Notes under the pieces: model-generated
What the model saw: the letters and a program-made list of their open reading frames with translations, nothing else
Told to the model about the DNA's origin: nothing
Database searches by the model: none
Assembly: GCF_030813595.1 (NCBI RefSeq)
Contig: NZ_JAUSUH010000001.1
Span: 434,001-498,000 of the forward strand
Reading direction: 5' to 3'
Source of the DNA: Ancylobacter vacuolatus
Lineage (GTDB): Bacteria; Pseudomonadota; Alphaproteobacteria; Rhizobiales; Xanthobacteraceae
DNA: 64,000 nucleotides
Made by a program: the position numbers and the translations under genes
Part shown: in pieces, positions 56,708-64,000 of the stretch
How positions within the stretch are numbered: position 1 is the first letter of the stretch
Layout of the letters: the number at the start of each line of letters is the position of its first letter

Positions 56708-58240
56708 TCAGTCTTCGCGGAACGCCCGCGCCATCTGGTCGGTCAGCGGCTTCGTCAGGTAGCTCAGTGGCGTGCGCGCGCCGGTCACGACGAACACGTC
56801 GGCCGGCATGCCCGGCACGAGTGTCTGCTCCGGGCGCAGCAGGGCCAACTGGGCGGCATCAATCCCGATCTTCAGCGCATAATAGGCCGTACCGGTCTGG
56901 GGATCGACCAGGCGGTCAGGCGAGACGGCGAGAAGCGTGCCGGACAATTCCGGTGTAGTGCGCTGATCAAAGGCGGCGAGGCGGACACGGGCGGGCTGTC
57001 CGGCGCGAATCCGGTCCACCGATGCCGGGTCTGCGCGGGCTTCCACAATCAGGGCCTCGTTATCAGGCACAATCTCCATCACAACGTCGCCCGGCTTGAT
57101 GACGCCACCGATGGTGTGGAAGGCGAGGCCATTGACCCGGCCGCTCACCGGTGCGCGGATATCGGTGCGCTTGAGCTTGTCGATGGCGGCGATGCGTTCC
57201 TCGGTCTGCTCCTGCACATTGGCCTCCGCCTCGCGCAGCTCGGTCAGCACCTTCTCTCGCGTGTCCCGCTCAAGTTCCAGGATCTGCAGCTGCAGCTGGC
57301 CGATCGCCTGCTCGATGGCGGCCTTGTCGGCGATGCGCCCGGCGATGGCGCCTTCCAGCTCGGCCTGCTGGCGCTCCAGCGCCAGAAGTCGCGTGGTCGG
57401 CATCAGGCCCTTGGCGCCGAGCGCGCGCGCCGCCTCCAACTCCTGGCCGATGAGAGCGTGCTGGCGCAGGGCTGCCGCGCGCTGGGCCTCCAGACCGCCG
57501 ATCTGCTCCCGGCTCTGGGCAATGCCGGCCTCGAGGCGCGCCACCTGGGCCTTCAGCGTCTCGCGCCGGGCCTGAAACAGCCGCTCTTGCCCAGTGAACA
57601 CGCGGTCGGCGATTTCCGCGCCCGTCTCGGGTGGCGCGATGCCGTCGGCTGGCAGACCGTCGCCGGCGAGGCCCGGTGCGGCGTCGGGTGGCACGGCATT
57701 CGCCCATTGCCGGTCTACCGCCACCATGGCGATGAGCATGGCCGGGCGCGTCATGGCCGGGGCGTCGTCGCGCTCGGCCTTGAGCCGGGCCTGCCGGGCG
57801 AGGGCCTCATAAAGCCGGTTCTCGACGATCGCCCGTTCGGCGGCATGGCGGGTGGCGTCGAGGCGGATCAGCAGGTCGCCGGCCTTGACCGATGCGCCAT
57901 CGCGCACGGCAAGCGCGCTGATGATGCCGCCGTCCAGATGTTGGATGGCGCGTGACTTTCCTTCCGTGACCAGGACGCCCGAAGAGACCACCGCGCTCTG
58001 CAGCATGGCGAGGGCCGACCAGATGCCGAAGCCGAGTATGACGCTGACGCACACCATGGCACCAAAGCGCAGGTGCCCGGCGGGATCGGCCGGGTCATCG
58101 GTGGCGCGGGAACCGGAGGCGGTCCGTCGGCGCCGGCCGAAGACCCCTCCCCCTGCGACGCGTTCCGGCCCTGCGGATGGCGGTTGGCAAACCTCGTCGG
58201 ACGAAGAAGCGCCGCGGTCATCCGAGGGGCCGGAGCTCAC
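56708..58240 (-). CDS. Type I secretion membrane fusion protein (HlyD/PrtE-like)
   Basis: 510 aa from a GTG that overlaps the exporter stop (GTGA). One membrane segment lies near 60-82 (FGAMVCVSVILGFGIWSALA). The N-terminal lipoyl half is GVLVTEGKSRAIQHLDGGII with AVRDGASVKAGDLLIRLD. A long periplasmic coiled-coil covers about 130-345. The C-terminal barrel has RTDIRAPVSGRVNGLAFHT and a final LVPGMPADVFVVTGARTPLS. It bridges the inner-membrane ABC protein and a TolC-like outer-membrane channel, which is not encoded in this window. Confidence 0.9.
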   Translation of the reverse strand: MSSGPSDDRGASSSDEVCQPPSAGPERVAGGGVFGRRRRTASGSRATDDPADPAGHLRFGAMVCVSVILGFGIWSALAMLQSAVVSSGVLVTEGKSRAIQHLDGGIISALAVRDGASVKAGDLLIRLDATRHAAERAIVENRLYEALARQARLKAERDDAPAMTRPAMLIAMVAVDRQWANAVPPDAAPGLAGDGLPADGIAPPETGAEIADRVFTGQERLFQARRETLKAQVARLEAGIAQSREQIGGLEAQRAAALRQHALIGQELEAARALGAKGLMPTTRLLALERQQAELEGAIAGRIADKAAIEQAIGQLQLQILELERDTREKVLTELREAEANVQEQTEERIAAIDKLKRTDIRAPVSGRVNGLAFHTIGGVIKPGDVVMEIVPDNEALIVEARADPASVDRIRAGQPARVRLAAFDQRTTPELSGTLLAVSPDRLVDPQTGTAYYALKIGIDAAQLALLRPEQTLVPGMPADVFVVTGARTPLSYLTKPLTDQMARAFRED

Positions 58241-59991
58241 GAGGCGGTCTCCGTCGCAACAGCCGCCCTTGCCGCCGCCTCGGCGGGCGGCTTCATCAGG
58301 TCACGCAGCACCGCTTCCTTGGGGCCGAGCGCAGCGATGCGCCCATCCTTCAGCACCAAAGCCCGGTCGCAGGCGGCAAGGCCGCTGGCGCGGTGGGTGA
58401 TGACGATCACGGCAGCGCCGCGCTTGCGGGCCACCAGCAATGCGGCCGTCAGCGCGGCATCGCCCTCCTGGTCGAGACTGGCGTTCGGTTCGTCGAGAAC
58501 GATCAGGCAGGGGTCGCCATAAAGTGCCCGGGCCAGGGCGATGCGCTGGCGTTGGCCGCCAGAAAGCGCCGCTCCGCCCGGCCCGAGACGGGTCATGTAG
58601 CCGTCCGGCAGCGCCAGGATCATGGCATGAGCCGCCGCGGCCTGGGCAGCACGAATGATGGTCTCGTCCTTGGCGCCGGGCTGGTGCCGGCTGATCGCGT
58701 CGCGCACGGTGCCGCCGATCAGTTCCACATCCTGCGGGAGATAGCCGATATGCCGGCCGAGCCTGTCGGCGTCCCATTGATCGAGCGTCGCGCCGTCCAG
58801 CCGCACACTGCCGCTCATGGGGCGCCAGAGGCCGACGATGATGCGGGCGAGAGTGGACTTGCCCGAGGCACTCGGCCCGAGAATGCCAAGCCCCTCGCCG
58901 GGTTCGAGCCGGAAGCCTATGCCATCCAGCACCGGGCGGCGCAGCCCTGGCGGCGCGGCGATGACGTTGGCGAGGCAGAGATGGCCCGTGGGTGTCGGAA
59001 GATCCATTTTCGGTCCGGCGTCGGCCTCATGGGCAAGCCGCCGCTCCAGTCGCTCAAGGGCGGCCCGCGCGCCGGCCATGGCCTTCCACTGGGCGACGAT
59101 CTGGTCGATGGGCGCCAGAGCCCGGCCCAGCATGATCGACGAGGCGATCATGATGCCGCCGGTCGCCGCCTGCTCGATGACCAGAACCGCGCCGATGGCC
59201 AGCGTCGCCGACTGCAGGAACAGGCGGAATCCGCGTGAGACGGCGGCGATACGGGCGGCCGCGTCGCCGCCGTCGCGTTCGGTCGCCCGTGCCCGGGCCA
59301 GTGTCCCACCCCACAGGCCGGCCACCTGGGGCCGCATGCCGAGCGCCGTCACTGCCTCGGATGAACGGCGGGCGGCCTCCAACATCATGCTGGCCTGCGC
59401 CGCCTCGCCCGCCGCCAGCGCCATCGGCGCCTGCGTCAGCTGATTGTTCAGGACGGCAAGTGACACCACCACCGCGACGCCCAGAAGGCCGATGAGCCCG
59501 AGCGACCAATGGAGAAGCCCCAGCACCACCAGATAGAGTGGCACCCATGGCAGATCGAGCAGTGCCAGCGGCGCCGGCCCACTGAGAAAGCGACGGGCGG
59601 TGGCCAGATCCGCGGTCGGCCTGCCGGCGGTTGCGTGCCCTGCGAACGCATCGGCGATCTCACTGCGAAAGGCCGGGCCTGAAAACTGCGCTTCCAGCCG
59701 GTCGCCCACACGCGCCAGAACCCGGCCTCGCGCATAGTCGATCATGGCGAAGGCGATGTAGAGCGCCGTCGTAATGAGACCGAGCAACCACAGGGTTGGC
59801 AACGAACGACTGACCAGCACCCGGTCATACACCTGGAGCATGAAGAGCGGGCCGGTGAGCATCAGGAGGTTGATGACGCCGCTGAACACGCCGACGCCGA
59901 TGAGGGCATGCTGGCTACCGTCGAGGAGGGCTCCAACGACGCTGCCAAGGCGACGGCGTGGCGACCCGGATTCTGCCGGGCGCGCCGTCAT
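58237..59991 (-). CDS. Type I secretion ABC permease/ATPase (PrtD-like)
   Basis: 584 aa, fused membrane and ATPase halves. Membrane helices lie within about 25-300 (SGVINLLMLTGPLFMLQVYD is the family's hallmark, PrtD/AprD type, with no C39 peptidase domain). The ATPase has GPSASGKSTLARII, ALSGGQRQRIALARALY, LIVLDEPNASLD and VITHR. An in-frame ATG at 60030 would add 13 residues. It is coupled to the HlyD-like gene, and the chitinase is the only evident substrate nearby. Confidence 0.9.
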   Translation of the reverse strand: MTARPAESGSPRRRLGSVVGALLDGSQHALIGVGVFSGVINLLMLTGPLFMLQVYDRVLVSRSLPTLWLLGLITTALYIAFAMIDYARGRVLARVGDRLEAQFSGPAFRSEIADAFAGHATAGRPTADLATARRFLSGPAPLALLDLPWVPLYLVVLGLLHWSLGLIGLLGVAVVVSLAVLNNQLTQAPMALAAGEAAQASMMLEAARRSSEAVTALGMRPQVAGLWGGTLARARATERDGGDAAARIAAVSRGFRLFLQSATLAIGAVLVIEQAATGGIMIASSIMLGRALAPIDQIVAQWKAMAGARAALERLERRLAHEADAGPKMDLPTPTGHLCLANVIAAPPGLRRPVLDGIGFRLEPGEGLGILGPSASGKSTLARIIVGLWRPMSGSVRLDGATLDQWDADRLGRHIGYLPQDVELIGGTVRDAISRHQPGAKDETIIRAAQAAAAHAMILALPDGYMTRLGPGGAALSGGQRQRIALARALYGDPCLIVLDEPNASLDQEGDAALTAALLVARKRGAAVIVITHRASGLAACDRALVLKDGRIAALGPKEAVLRDLMKPPAEAAARAAVATETAS

Positions 59992-60154
59992 CGACCCAAC
60001 CTGGTCGGCGGCAGCGCAGCGGCCGGCCATCGGTACGTCGAAGGGTTGAGCGCACTCATTCCGTGGATGTATTTCGCCTTCGCCAGTCCTGCAAAACTAT
60101 GGCGCGGGCCGGCGGAGTGGAGCAAGGGCGCCACCATGGTCCCGCCTGATGACA

Positions 60155-60177
60155 GGCGCTTATATTTCATAAGCGCC
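60155..60177. promoter_or_regulatory. Perfect inverted repeat upstream of the type I secretion operon
   Basis: GGCGCTTAT (60155-60163) and ATAAGCGCC (60169-60177) form a 9-bp perfect inverted repeat with a 5-nt spacer. It lies 130-170 nt upstream of the exporter start and just after the stop of the XRE gene. Its core recurs at 56572-56587. It could be an operator, or a hairpin ending the XRE transcript; the second copy without GC arms favours the operator view. Confidence 0.6.
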
Positions 60178-60195
60178 GCCGCCGACTCCCATGGC

Positions 60196-60798
60196 TCACC
60201 TTAGGTCGGTGAAGAGCTTGACTTCGGTGATGCCGACCGGGACGGTTTCGGCGCAGGGATCGTAGGAGATGGACAGGAGCGTCTTGGGCCCGAAGCGACG
60301 GATACGGATGTTCCACTCATGGCGGACCGCAGTGTCAACCATGATGTCGGTGTGCCGGTCGCTCACACCGCTGACGAGGGCCAGCTTGCCGGAATCGATG
60401 TCGCGCCGGAGAGCGTCGTTCGCTTGCAGTTCTCCCGACTCGTTCACGAGATGGCCTTCCAACGACTTGCCCTGCAGGAGCGACATGCCCGGCCACAAGG
60501 CGCGATAGCCGCGCGATGCCGCCATGAAGCGTATGCCATCAAGATCATAGAGCGCCACGATTCCGGGCTGACGCTCCGTGAACAAACGCTCCAGCAAGAT
60601 CTCGTCGCAGTCGGTCGGGGTGATCATGTCGCTGATCCGCCGCATCAGGTCGGCAGATGGCTTGTCCTGCCCGGTTTCCCAATACGACACGGCCGCTTGC
60701 GACACGCCGAGCATCTCCGCCAGCGCGACCTGCTTGATGCCGTTCAGTCGTCGCCAGGAGCGCAGCCTCTGAGCGAAATGAGTACCCTCTTCCGACAT
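60196..60798 (-). CDS. XRE-family regulator with PAS-like sensor domain
   Basis: 200 aa. Residues 8-62 are an XRE helix-turn-helix (QRLRSWRRLNGIKQVALAEM, LGVSQAAVSYWETGQDKPSA). Residues 80-190 look like a PAS-type sensor (GIVALYDLDGIRFMAASRGY, WPGMSLLQGKSLEG), a combination seen in alphaproteobacterial regulators. It is upstream of and co-oriented with the type I secretion genes, separated by 165-205 nt containing the inverted repeat. It probably controls the exporter and chitinase. The PAS ligand is unknown. Confidence 0.8.
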   Translation of the reverse strand: MSEEGTHFAQRLRSWRRLNGIKQVALAEMLGVSQAAVSYWETGQDKPSADLMRRISDMITPTDCDEILLERLFTERQPGIVALYDLDGIRFMAASRGYRALWPGMSLLQGKSLEGHLVNESGELQANDALRRDIDSGKLALVSGVSDRHTDIMVDTAVRHEWNIRIRRFGPKTLLSISYDPCAETVPVGITEVKLFTDLR

Positions 60799-61453: not shown

Positions 61454-64000
61454 GTGGAAACGCCTGACCTGCCCGCCTTGCGGTCCTATCATTCCTGGAT
61501 CGCCAACGAGACGCTTGAAGACTATTCGCTGCGCTACACCGCGCGCTCCTTCCGCCGTTGGTCGCCCTTCGTCATCGCCAACACGGCGCTGGGGGGCATT
61601 TCCTTCCTGGCGCTGGAGACGATCGGTGCCTCGATCACGCTGAGCTACGGCTTCATGAATGCCGGGCTGGCAATCCTCGTCGTGTCGGTGTTCATCTTCG
61701 TCACCAGCCTGCCGATCGCCTATTACTCCAGCAAATACGGCATCGACCTCGACCTGCTGACCCGGGGTGCCGGCTTCGGCTATATCGGCTCGACCATCAC
61801 CTCGCTGATCTATGCCAGCTTCACCTTCATCTTCTTCGCGCTGGAAGGCGCGATCATGGCGCAGGCGCTGAAGATCTACGCCGATGTGCCGCTGGTGCTG
61901 GGCTACATCGTCTCCTCGCTGGTCATCATCCCGCTGACGCTGATGGGCATCACCATGATCTCGCGGCTGCAAATGGTGACGCAGCCGCTGTGGCTGGGGA
62001 TGATGATCCTGCCCTTCGTGCTGATCGCGGTGAAAGCGCCGGAGGACATCGCCGCCTGGACACAGTTCGCCGGGCTGGAAACCGGCTCGCGCGGCTTCAA
62101 CGTGCTCGCCTTCGGCGCGGCGGTCAGCATGATGTGCTCGCTGGTGGTGCAGATCGGCGAACAGGCGGACTATCTGCGCTTCCTCCCCGAGAAGACGGCG
62201 GCGAACCGGCTGGGCTGGTGGAGCGCGGTGGTGCTGGCGGGGCCGGGCTGGATCCTCATCGGCGGGCTGAAGATTCTCGCCGGCGGGCTGCTGGCGGTGC
62301 TGGTGCTCGGCAGCGGCCTGCCGCGCCCGGCGGCGCTGGAGCCGATCCACATGTATATCGTGGCCTATGGCCATGTGTTCGAGAACCCGGCCCTGGTTCT
62401 GTTCTGCGCGACCTTCTTCGTGCTGATCTCGCAGATCAAGATCAACGTCACCAACGCCTATGCCGGCTCGCTCGCCTGGTCGAACTTCTTTTCCCGCGTG
62501 ACGCACTACCATCCCGGCCGGGTGGTCTGGCTGGTGTTCAACATCCTCATCTCGCTGCTGCTGATGCTGCTCGGCATCTTCGACACGCTGGAGGTGGTGC
62601 TGGCGGTCTATTCCAACATCGCCATGGCGTGGGTCGGGGCGATCATTGCCGATCTCCTGGTGCTGAAGCCGCTCAAGGTCAGCCCTGGCTTCATCGAGTT
62701 CAAGCGCGCGCATCTGCACGATATCAACCCGGTGGGCTGCGGCGGCATGGCGCTCGGCTCGCTGGTGGCGCTGACGGCCTTCACCGGCGTGCTGGGGCCG
62801 CTGATGCAGGCCTATGCCGCGCCCTGCTCCTTTCTCATCGCCTTCCTGACGGCGACGCTGATCGGCTTCGCCACGCGCGGGCGCTATTATCTCGCGCGCC
62901 AGCCGGTGCATCCGAGCCTCGGTTCCGACTCGTCGGCGGTGCTGCGCTGCGAAATCTGCGACCATGGCTATGAACGGGACGACATGGCCTATTGCAGCTT
63001 CTATGAGCGGCCCATCTGCTCGCTGTGCTGCAGCCTCGACGCGCATTGCCACGACGCCTGCAAGAAGTCGCACCAGGATCTGGAGACCTCGCGCTCACGC
63101 TATTTCGGTGTCGGCTTCACCCGGCGCATCGCCCCGCACATGCCGCAGCGTCTGCTGAAGGTCGCTGGCGTGCTGATTGCGCTCTCCGTGGTGACGGGCG
63201 CGCTGTTCCTGCTCACCTACCGGCTGATCGACCCGGGCGAGGACGTGCCGCATCTCGACAATGGCGCGCTGCTGCTGCGGATCTTCCTCGCCCTCCTGCC
63301 GCTGATGGCGATCAGCGCCTGGTGGATCGTGCTCGCCAATGAGAGCCGGGAGCTCGCCGAGCGCAACCTCGTCGGCTCGCTGGAAAAGCTCTACGAGACC
63401 CGCGAGGAGCTGACCCGCAGCGAGCGGCTCGCCGCGCTCGGCCAGCTGACCGCCACGGTGAGCCATGAGTTGCGCAACCCGCTCGGCACGCTCGCCACTT
63501 CGGTCGCGGTGCTGCAACGGGCGGGAAGCTTGACCGGCGAGCGCGAGCGCGGCGAGCTCGACCGCATCCAGCGCAATGTGCGCCGCTGCGTGCGCATCAT
63601 CGACGACCTCTTGGAATTCTCCCGCCGACCCAACGTCGCCATGGTGCCGCTGGCGCTCGACGCCTGGATCGCCGAGCAGGCGGGCGACCTCCGCGCGCTC
63701 GGCCCGGTGCCGCTGGAACTGGTGCTTCGCTGCGGCGAGATGATCGAGGCCGATGGCGAAAGGCTGCGGCAGGTGCTCGTCAATCTGGTGCAGAACGCCA
63801 TGCAGGCGGTGATGGAGCGCCCCGCCGGCGCGCCGCCGGGCCAGGTGCGCCTCGCCACCGCGCGCGAGGGCGAACAGGTGGTGATCACGGTCGCGGATAA
63901 TGGCGCCGGCATGAGCGCGGAGGTGCGGGCGCGGCTGTTCGAGCCCCTGTTCAGCACCAAGCCGTTCGGCCTCGGGCTCGGCCTCGCGCTGGTGCAGCGC
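61454..64000 (+). CDS. NCS1-type permease fused to a histidine kinase (3' end outside window)
   Basis: 849 codons are visible with no stop before the window edge. Residues 36-480 are a polytopic transporter of the NCS1 (cytosine/purine permease) kind, 10-12 helices, with NTALGGISFLALETIG, LLTRGAGFGYIGSTI and the TM8-like KINVTNAYAGSLAWSNFFSR (about 330-350). Residues 497-535 are Cys-rich (CEICDHG, YCSFYERPICSLCC, HCHDAC), a likely metal site. Two further helices (about 555-615) and a short coiled coil lead to a kinase with H671 in VSHELRNPLG, N-box VNLVQNAMQAV, DNGAGMS and GLGLGLALVQR. Presumably it senses or transports a nucleobase-like solute and signals to a response regulator beyond the edge. 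The GTG at 61454 is the best start; AAGGTGCGAAG precedes it. Confidence 0.82.
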   Translation, partial: METPDLPALRSYHSWIANETLEDYSLRYTARSFRRWSPFVIANTALGGISFLALETIGASITLSYGFMNAGLAILVVSVFIFVTSLPIAYYSSKYGIDLDLLTRGAGFGYIGSTITSLIYASFTFIFFALEGAIMAQALKIYADVPLVLGYIVSSLVIIPLTLMGITMISRLQMVTQPLWLGMMILPFVLIAVKAPEDIAAWTQFAGLETGSRGFNVLAFGAAVSMMCSLVVQIGEQADYLRFLPEKTAANRLGWWSAVVLAGPGWILIGGLKILAGGLLAVLVLGSGLPRPAALEPIHMYIVAYGHVFENPALVLFCATFFVLISQIKINVTNAYAGSLAWSNFFSRVTHYHPGRVVWLVFNILISLLLMLLGIFDTLEVVLAVYSNIAMAWVGAIIADLLVLKPLKVSPGFIEFKRAHLHDINPVGCGGMALGSLVALTAFTGVLGPLMQAYAAPCSFLIAFLTATLIGFATRGRYYLARQPVHPSLGSDSSAVLRCEICDHGYERDDMAYCSFYERPICSLCCSLDAHCHDACKKSHQDLETSRSRYFGVGFTRRIAPHMPQRLLKVAGVLIALSVVTGALFLLTYRLIDPGEDVPHLDNGALLLRIFLALLPLMAISAWWIVLANESRELAERNLVGSLEKLYETREELTRSERLAALGQLTATVSHELRNPLGTLATSVAVLQRAGSLTGERERGELDRIQRNVRRCVRIIDDLLEFSRRPNVAMVPLALDAWIAEQAGDLRALGPVPLELVLRCGEMIEADGERLRQVLVNLVQNAMQAVMERPAGAPPGQVRLATAREGEQVVITVADNGAGMSAEVRARLFEPLFSTKPFGLGLGLALVQR

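Follow-up and report, generated by a model that had tools for sequence, protein, structure and literature searches.

An NCS1-like transporter fused to a histidine kinase at a formamidase locus of Ancylobacter vacuolatus, a probable sensor of short amides or urea

We analysed a 64,000-nucleotide stretch of the Ancylobacter vacuolatus genome (contig NZ_JAUSUH010000001.1, positions 434,001 to 498,000; hereafter the window, G000:C1:434001-498000 in our working labels, with G000 for the genome itself), at the end of which lies a plus-strand gene (61454..64000) that joins an NCS1-like transporter to a histidine kinase, and whose probable role in the sensing of short amides or urea is considered here. 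The frame is open from a GTG at 61454 to the end of the window (849 codons) and, traced further in the genome, reaches its stop at contig position C1:498111, i.e., window coordinate 64111, giving a protein of 885 aa; the start position is the same in close relatives. Coordinates past the window end, here and below, are extrapolated (window = L009 position + 59999).

Residues 1-480 form a multi-helix membrane domain, most of which is a predicted NCS1-fold transmembrane module (residues ~36-480, 61559..62893). This is followed by an eight-cysteine segment (residues 499-536, CxxC..C..CxxCC..C..C, 62948..63061) and by two extra transmembrane helices (residues ~563-591 and ~603-631, 63140..63346), predicted from hydropathy and a full-length model, in which the second helix is continuous with the kinase helix. 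The initial annotation of this DNA overlooked both the cysteine segment and the extra helices. The C-terminal part comprises a HisKA phosphoacceptor domain (residues 662-725, 63437..63628; PF00512, E 1.5e-15) with the motif VSHELRNP and His671, and a HATPase_c domain (residues 767-877, 63752..64000 and on to extrapolated 64084; PF02518, E 3.2e-26 for the full protein), all of these features being on the plus strand. Both domains are complete and are the sole Pfam matches above cut-off, and by these criteria (phosphoacceptor His, complete HATPase_c) the protein is predicted to be a sensor histidine kinase.

The fusion of the two halves is real. A matching uninterrupted frame (889-921 codons, 78-93% identity) is found in four genomes of the family sample (G022, G073, G145, G106), and frames of 875-916 aa are present in seven of the eight named relatives with the same layout (L036-L039, L041, L042, L065), while in the eighth, L040, the kinase frame stops at 627 aa. 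Because relatives carry the same frame, an assembly error or a frameshift between the halves is ruled out as the origin of the fusion. The initial annotation had read one uninterrupted frame joining an NCS1-like transporter to a complete kinase core, had named a stop or frameshift between the halves as what would speak against it, and had proposed to look for genomes with the same architecture; the frame holds up to its stop, no such break was found, and the architecture recurs in the genomes and loci just listed.

The NCS1 nature of the transporter half is visible by fold and profile and not by Pfam. Pfam, NCBIfam and Protein Data Bank (PDB) sequence searches with this half gave nothing useful (the Pfam and NCBIfam matches were confined to the kinase part); the Transp_cyt_pur model of Pfam (PF02133) has no match to the window protein at E ≤ 1, and a PF02133 search of the A. 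vacuolatus genome gave zero matches at E ≤ 0.001. The AlphaFold model of residues 1-537 (22 sequences; predicted local distance difference test score, pLDDT, 77.5) has the NCS1/LeuT fold, and its best Foldseek matches are Mhp1 and CodB. VIA-align gave Z 32.1 with CodB (root-mean-square deviation 3.6, 389 aligned) and at best Z 29.0 with Mhp1 (4.0, 411 aligned; other Mhp1 matches Z 28.0 and 25.4), with the next families (YcsG, Nramp and others) at Z 24.0 and below. In hhalign, 102 module rows matched 31 Pfam-NCS1 proteins with 99.1% probability (E 1.3e-18, 397 columns), whereas the control comparison of the module profile with 29 SLC5 proteins gave 3.6%. A bridge between the two groups is L151, a 497-aa stand-alone transporter matched both by the profile of the module (E 3.2e-25 over its best stretch) and by the Pfam NCS1 model (E 3.6e-9). 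Because predicted fold, profile match and this bridge protein agree, despite the Pfam miss, we assign the transporter half to a distant NCS1 branch, so that the earlier NCS1 call stands on fold and profile and fails only in its expected Pfam match. SLC5 membership, with no SSF match in Pfam and the hhalign value above, is ruled out. In its own surroundings (L151:5949-10373, G337:C40), the bridge transporter, which has no cysteine segment, adjoins a double carbon-nitrogen hydrolase and a Peripla_BP_5 protein, neighbours which suggest another amide or nitrile carrier.

We compared the pocket residues in two alignments, both of which set the window module and 20 further members, drawn from 67 rows, against 31 NCS1 proteins. 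Where 30/31 NCS1 proteins have the base-stacking Trp, 20/21 sampled members have Phe; the CodB aromatic pair (Trp108/Phe204) was not recovered, and its second member could not be placed with confidence. The position of Mhp1 Gln121 holds Glu (E131) in all 21 members, and Gln in 19/31 NCS1 proteins. The hydroxyl residues of the Na2 site in transmembrane helix 8 (TM8) are not retained, since they align with K329 and I330, invariant in 21/21; NCS1 proteins have G/T/A at the K329 position in 26/31, and two bridge proteins carry Arg and Lys at the TM8 sodium-site position. This replacement of sodium-site residues by lysine argues against sodium coupling, as far as the aligned sequences go. N334, aligned with Mhp1 Asn318 in TM8, is conserved. 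An alignment of 40 members, among them three stand-alone ones, shows no variation at E131, K329 or N334. The sodium-site and Trp positions follow the Mhp1 numbering. For CodB and Mhp1, the roles given to the stacking Trp and to Gln121 and Asn318 are those in the available excerpt of PMC9379551.

Beyond the window, the start of the next gene (64101-65276, plus strand) overlaps the stop of the transporter-kinase gene. It encodes a 391-aa REC-HisKA-HATPase protein (Response_reg 1.1e-20, HATPase_c 4.8e-14, HisKA 7.1e-4, the last below its cut-off), hereafter the REC-kinase. An OmpR-type response regulator gene on the minus strand (65294-66007; Response_reg 7e-22, Trans_reg_C 5.4e-22) is divergent from three plus-strand genes: fmdA for a formamidase (FmdA_AmdA; 66276-67502; PF03069, 3.4e-182), amiS for an AmiS/UreI amide/urea channel (67563-68081; PF02293, 4.7e-55), and a gene at 68143-68445 that is FmdB-like (fmdB) as judged from its sequence. 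In 8/8 named window-type loci (L036-L042, L065) the genes are arranged as kinase, REC-kinase, regulator, fmdA, amiS, fmdB, the REC-kinase being longer in L038 (814 aa) and L042 (852 aa). The expectation that the fusion heads a signalling locus of its own, with a response regulator and target genes downstream, is thus borne out. On the other side, upstream of the kinase gene and seemingly unrelated to it, translations read by eye show an apparent type I secretion pair (an ATP-binding cassette (ABC) transporter and a membrane fusion protein) and an XRE-type regulator on the minus strand (56708-60798). A second copy of the module in this genome (L010:7877-11446, G000:C5) is a hybrid kinase of 1189 aa, with a LuxR-type regulator. 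An operon of urea/amide ABC type is divergent from it and encodes a Peripla_BP_5 protein together with two permeases, two ATPases and a further FmdA.

Between the OmpR-type regulator gene and the divergent fmdA lies a TTACA-N5-TTACA repeat (66126-66140). It is present 5' of fmdA in 12/12 window-type loci examined, namely our own, the eight named ones, G073, G106 and G341; L065 and L155 (G341) are identical in sequence at the repeat, so that the 12 loci represent 11 genomes, and G022 and G145 lie outside this sample. A third TTACA follows 32-34 bases past the second in 11/12 loci, with TTACG in L037. The remaining 72 named loci contain TTACA-N5-TTACA only twice in 1,289,370 bases. The A. vacuolatus genome has three exact matches, and the reversed control has zero. 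As a 10-base direct repeat that separates an OmpR-type regulator from its divergent target, TTACA-N5-TTACA fits the operator style usual for that class and is, on sequence grounds, a candidate operator of the OmpR-type regulator. The other two sites in this genome (G000:C3:202060-202074 and G000:C8:194603-194617) both read TTACAAGTC(A/C)TTACA, and may also be targeted by an OmpR-type regulator.

The eight cysteines are conserved in 80/80 homologous loci. Their segment is predicted, with modest confidence, as beta-hairpins and a helix, and is probably metal-binding. Searched alone it has no Pfam match at E ≤ 5, and no Pfam domain was found in residues 480-660, although whether Pfam includes a STAC model was left unchecked. 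A distant member was seen on a plasmid of Arthrobacter sp. U41 (L215:5932-7608), where a stand-alone 'hypothetical protein' directly 5' of an aliphatic amidase gene keeps the C-terminal segment in part and has lost the cysteines.

The module is widespread. One scan of genome contigs gave at least 590 matching loci, and the 80 with the best matches form the named set; this set therefore favours close relatives and contains many Bradyrhizobium, and a survey of 398 Pseudomonadota genomes was used for less biased counts. In the survey the module occurs in 54/398 genomes, the window's own included. Among the genomes of the window's own family it occurs in 47/149, five of which have the form of 889-921 codons, the other matches being in frames of 1096-1646 codons, with one partial match in a 358-codon frame. 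It is also found in cyanobacterial, Campylobacterota, myxobacterial and actinobacterial records, and in 530 of 72,556 plasmid records, 342 of them from Klebsiella. The single Klebsiella record opened (L214, NZ_CP039955.1 61869-83461) has a relative of the kind found on these 342, ~50% identical in the module and annotated 'ATP-binding protein', whose gene adjoins urtABCDE and a formamidase gene.

The genes near the module mostly belong to amide and urea use. An FmdA or UrtA-like protein is encoded nearby in 67/80 loci, and in 49/53 of those whose flanks reach 7 kb or more on each side. For the survey counts a module had to be matched over a long stretch, which gave 58 places in 52 of the 54 genomes with a match, and FmdA had to be full-length (E < 1e-160; 44 places, 40 genomes). 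Weaker FmdA_AmdA matches, most of them partial, were left out of the counts (in all, 75 genomes). Of the 40 genomes that encode a full-length FmdA, 39 carry the module; 13 genomes have the module only and one has FmdA only (Fisher p ~1e-41, not corrected for kinship), and for 40/44 FmdA genes a module is found at a distance of 3-12 kb. Three unrelated amide/urea hydrolases occur near members: FmdA, the urease alpha subunit (within 3 kb in L087, L110 and L114, with a urease cluster also close to a member in Methylovirgula), and in Arthrobacter a carbon-nitrogen hydrolase annotated as aliphatic amidase, directly 3' of a stand-alone member. Kinase-less modules lie directly 5' of fmdA in L085 and L105, and stand-alone cyanobacterial members directly precede fmdA. 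No nucleobase genes are among the identified neighbours, although they were not systematically searched for.

From the architecture, predicted fold, gene neighbourhood, conservation and repeat, which the analysis shows, we infer a working scheme that we consider probable, namely that a short-amide/urea-sensing NCS1-type kinase controls the formamidase by a two-component relay. Small amides (formamide, acetamide and/or urea) would bind in the transporter pocket and cause an inward/outward switch. The cytoplasmic eight-cysteine segment, perhaps with a bound metal, and the two-helix membrane hairpin would pass this switch into the continuous kinase helix and alter autophosphorylation. The OmpR-type regulator would then receive the phosphate, probably via the neighbouring REC-kinase, and may bind TTACA-N5-TTACA and switch on fmdA-amiS-fmdB; the direction of the switch, this order of the relay, the operator function and the positive sign of control are presumed.

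Several observations weigh against this scheme. Within 15 kb of 18/58 survey modules there is no full-length FmdA, and 13/80 named loci have no FmdA or UrtA-like neighbour in the available DNA, one of these, L114, having urease instead. Four others of the 13, L044 and L107 (cyanobacterial) and L055 and L070 (Sulfurimonas), have long flanks on both sides and show no obvious amide gene by eye. The stand-alone Arthrobacter member lacks the eight cysteines, the residues of the sodium site and the pocket were assigned from alignments of distant sequences, and the model has pLDDT under 70 over part of TM8-TM9. Finally, SLC5/STAC is the best studied family of transporter kinases, and in the excerpt of PMC9100948 the transporter domain of its member CbrA is reported to be non-essential for signal perception; because of this report the module need not be the sensor, and we hold the receptor claim at moderate confidence.

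Whether the module still transports its ligand is a separate matter. A receptor that binds the amide and has lost transport would be a sub-case of the amide/urea scheme, with which its chances overlap, and taken by itself it seems less likely than not. Ks-Amt5 is such a repurposed transporter with transport lost (PMC5764959, in part), 65/80 loci encode an AmiS/UreI channel or a UrtA-type ABC importer besides the module, and the sodium site is replaced by Lys-Ile, all of which fit a pure receptor. On the other hand, the DNA covered around the stand-alone L105 (21.6 kb) and L085 (only 4.1 kb) contains no such importer, which suggests that the module can move solute, and both carry the same lysine as the fused members.

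That the module is a passive or modulatory anchor, with the true input (e.g., metal, redox or nitrogen status) read in the cytoplasm by the eight-cysteine segment or the kinase, is in our view improbable. Such an anchor would fit the universal presence of the cysteines in the named loci and the CbrA report, but not the invariance of E131, K329 and N334 in fused and stand-alone members alike, the stand-alone modules that precede amide hydrolases, as expected for solute handling, or the stand-alone member without cysteines. Ammonia is the common product of formamidase, amidase and urease, and one module serving all three kinds of locus might thus sense products or nitrogen state (ammonium, formate) and not the amide; this is very unlikely given the uptake-type pocket, the stand-alone copies in amidase operons and the tight tracking of FmdA, which would be unexpected for an ammonia sensor. 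Least likely of all is the nucleobase or hydantoin transceptor of the initial annotation, in which a canonical NCS1 substrate (purine/pyrimidine-like or hydantoin-like) drives the kinase: the nearest solved structures are indeed a cytosine (CodB) and a hydantoin (Mhp1) carrier and the TM8 asparagine is retained, but we set this role aside because the pocket is changed (Trp to Phe, Gln to invariant Glu) and the gene company is one of amides and urea, with formamidase, AmiS/UreI and FmdB-like genes at the locus itself and formamidase, urea/short-amide ABC transporters, urease and aliphatic amidase near relatives.

The short-amide/urea scheme may extend beyond kinases. Pfam scans of nine chosen members found kinases in L043, L044 and L051, GGDEF with or without EAL in the Sulfurimonas members L049, L055 and L058, and no output domain in L085, L105 and L114. 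Short amides or urea may thus feed into cyclic di-GMP (c-di-GMP) in the Sulfurimonas fusions, although no obvious amide gene was seen by eye near these three. In a tree of 68 of 84 rows, kept after removal of near-copies, stand-alone members branch first and fused ones cluster (92/98). The labels 'HK' and 'hybrid' were given by length, and 'cdiGMP_or_other' comes from the scans of L049, L055 and L058, L070 and L094 being unscanned. We lean towards a single fusion event, which is not a result of the tree, as its root depends on one very long outgroup branch. As a tentative wider proposal, which we hold less firmly than the scheme for the window locus and regard as near evenly balanced, the module could be a general amide/urea input unit: a sodium-independent NCS1-fold branch, at first a stand-alone amide carrier in amidase/urease operons, would have been joined once to output through the cysteine-rich relay and then put to use again with kinases, simple or hybrid, and with c-di-GMP enzymes, providing the missing inducer sensor for formamide/urea use in many bacteria.

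A transporter-kinase fusion is already a known kind of protein, and the NCS1 version with amide/urea company is apparently undescribed, since no description of such a fusion, its cysteine segment or its gene company was found in the open-access literature searched. Two described fmd clusters pair a formamidase with a short-amide/urea ABC importer: fmdCABDEF of Methylophilus methylotrophus, which is induced by formamide and urea (review, PMC10781810), and urtABCDE-fmdAB of Pseudomonas veronii, for which a role in taking up formamide has been suggested (PMC13209695). In the excerpts of these two papers no inducer-sensing kinase is named, and the present family offers a candidate, by which, if the scheme is true, formamide/urea operons gain a sensor. 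A 1131-aa 'histidine kinase' listed beside urtA-urease in Dechloromonas aromatica, in the available part of its 2009 genome paper (PMC2907700), likely belongs to this family, as its size, its adjoining 308-aa receiver protein and its urt/ure setting match the hybrid branch, a likeness drawn from the table entry and not from sequence.

Compared with Mhp1 and CodB, the module shares the fold, the profile match and the conserved TM8 asparagine, but it escapes the Pfam model, has its stacking Trp, substrate Gln and TM8 sodium-site residues replaced, and is fused to signalling outputs. The SLC5/STAC kinases (CbrA, CrbS, RpuS) also have a LeuT-fold transporter N-terminal to a histidine kinase that regulates use of the likely solute, as well as hybrid forms with LuxR-type regulators (PMC9100948 and PMC13022988, both in excerpt). 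In the present proteins, in contrast, the transporter is NCS1-like and not of SLC5 type, and the eight-cysteine segment and two-helix membrane hairpin occupy the place of STAC and PAS. The ammonium sensor kinase Ks-Amt5 likewise reuses a transporter of a nitrogen compound as the sensor of a fused kinase, and the conversion from transporter to receptor is established there for ammonium, according to the part of PMC5764959 available. Its Amt fold, however, is unrelated and trimeric, and the ligand predicted for the present family is an amide or urea. SLC5 and Amt are the only transporter folds met fused to histidine kinases in the literature covered, and the NCS1-like fold would be the third. 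If true, such a widespread third fold would show that the conversion of carrier to sensor happens repeatedly, and its stand-alone and fused forms, present side by side, make it possible to test for a loss of transport on becoming a receptor.

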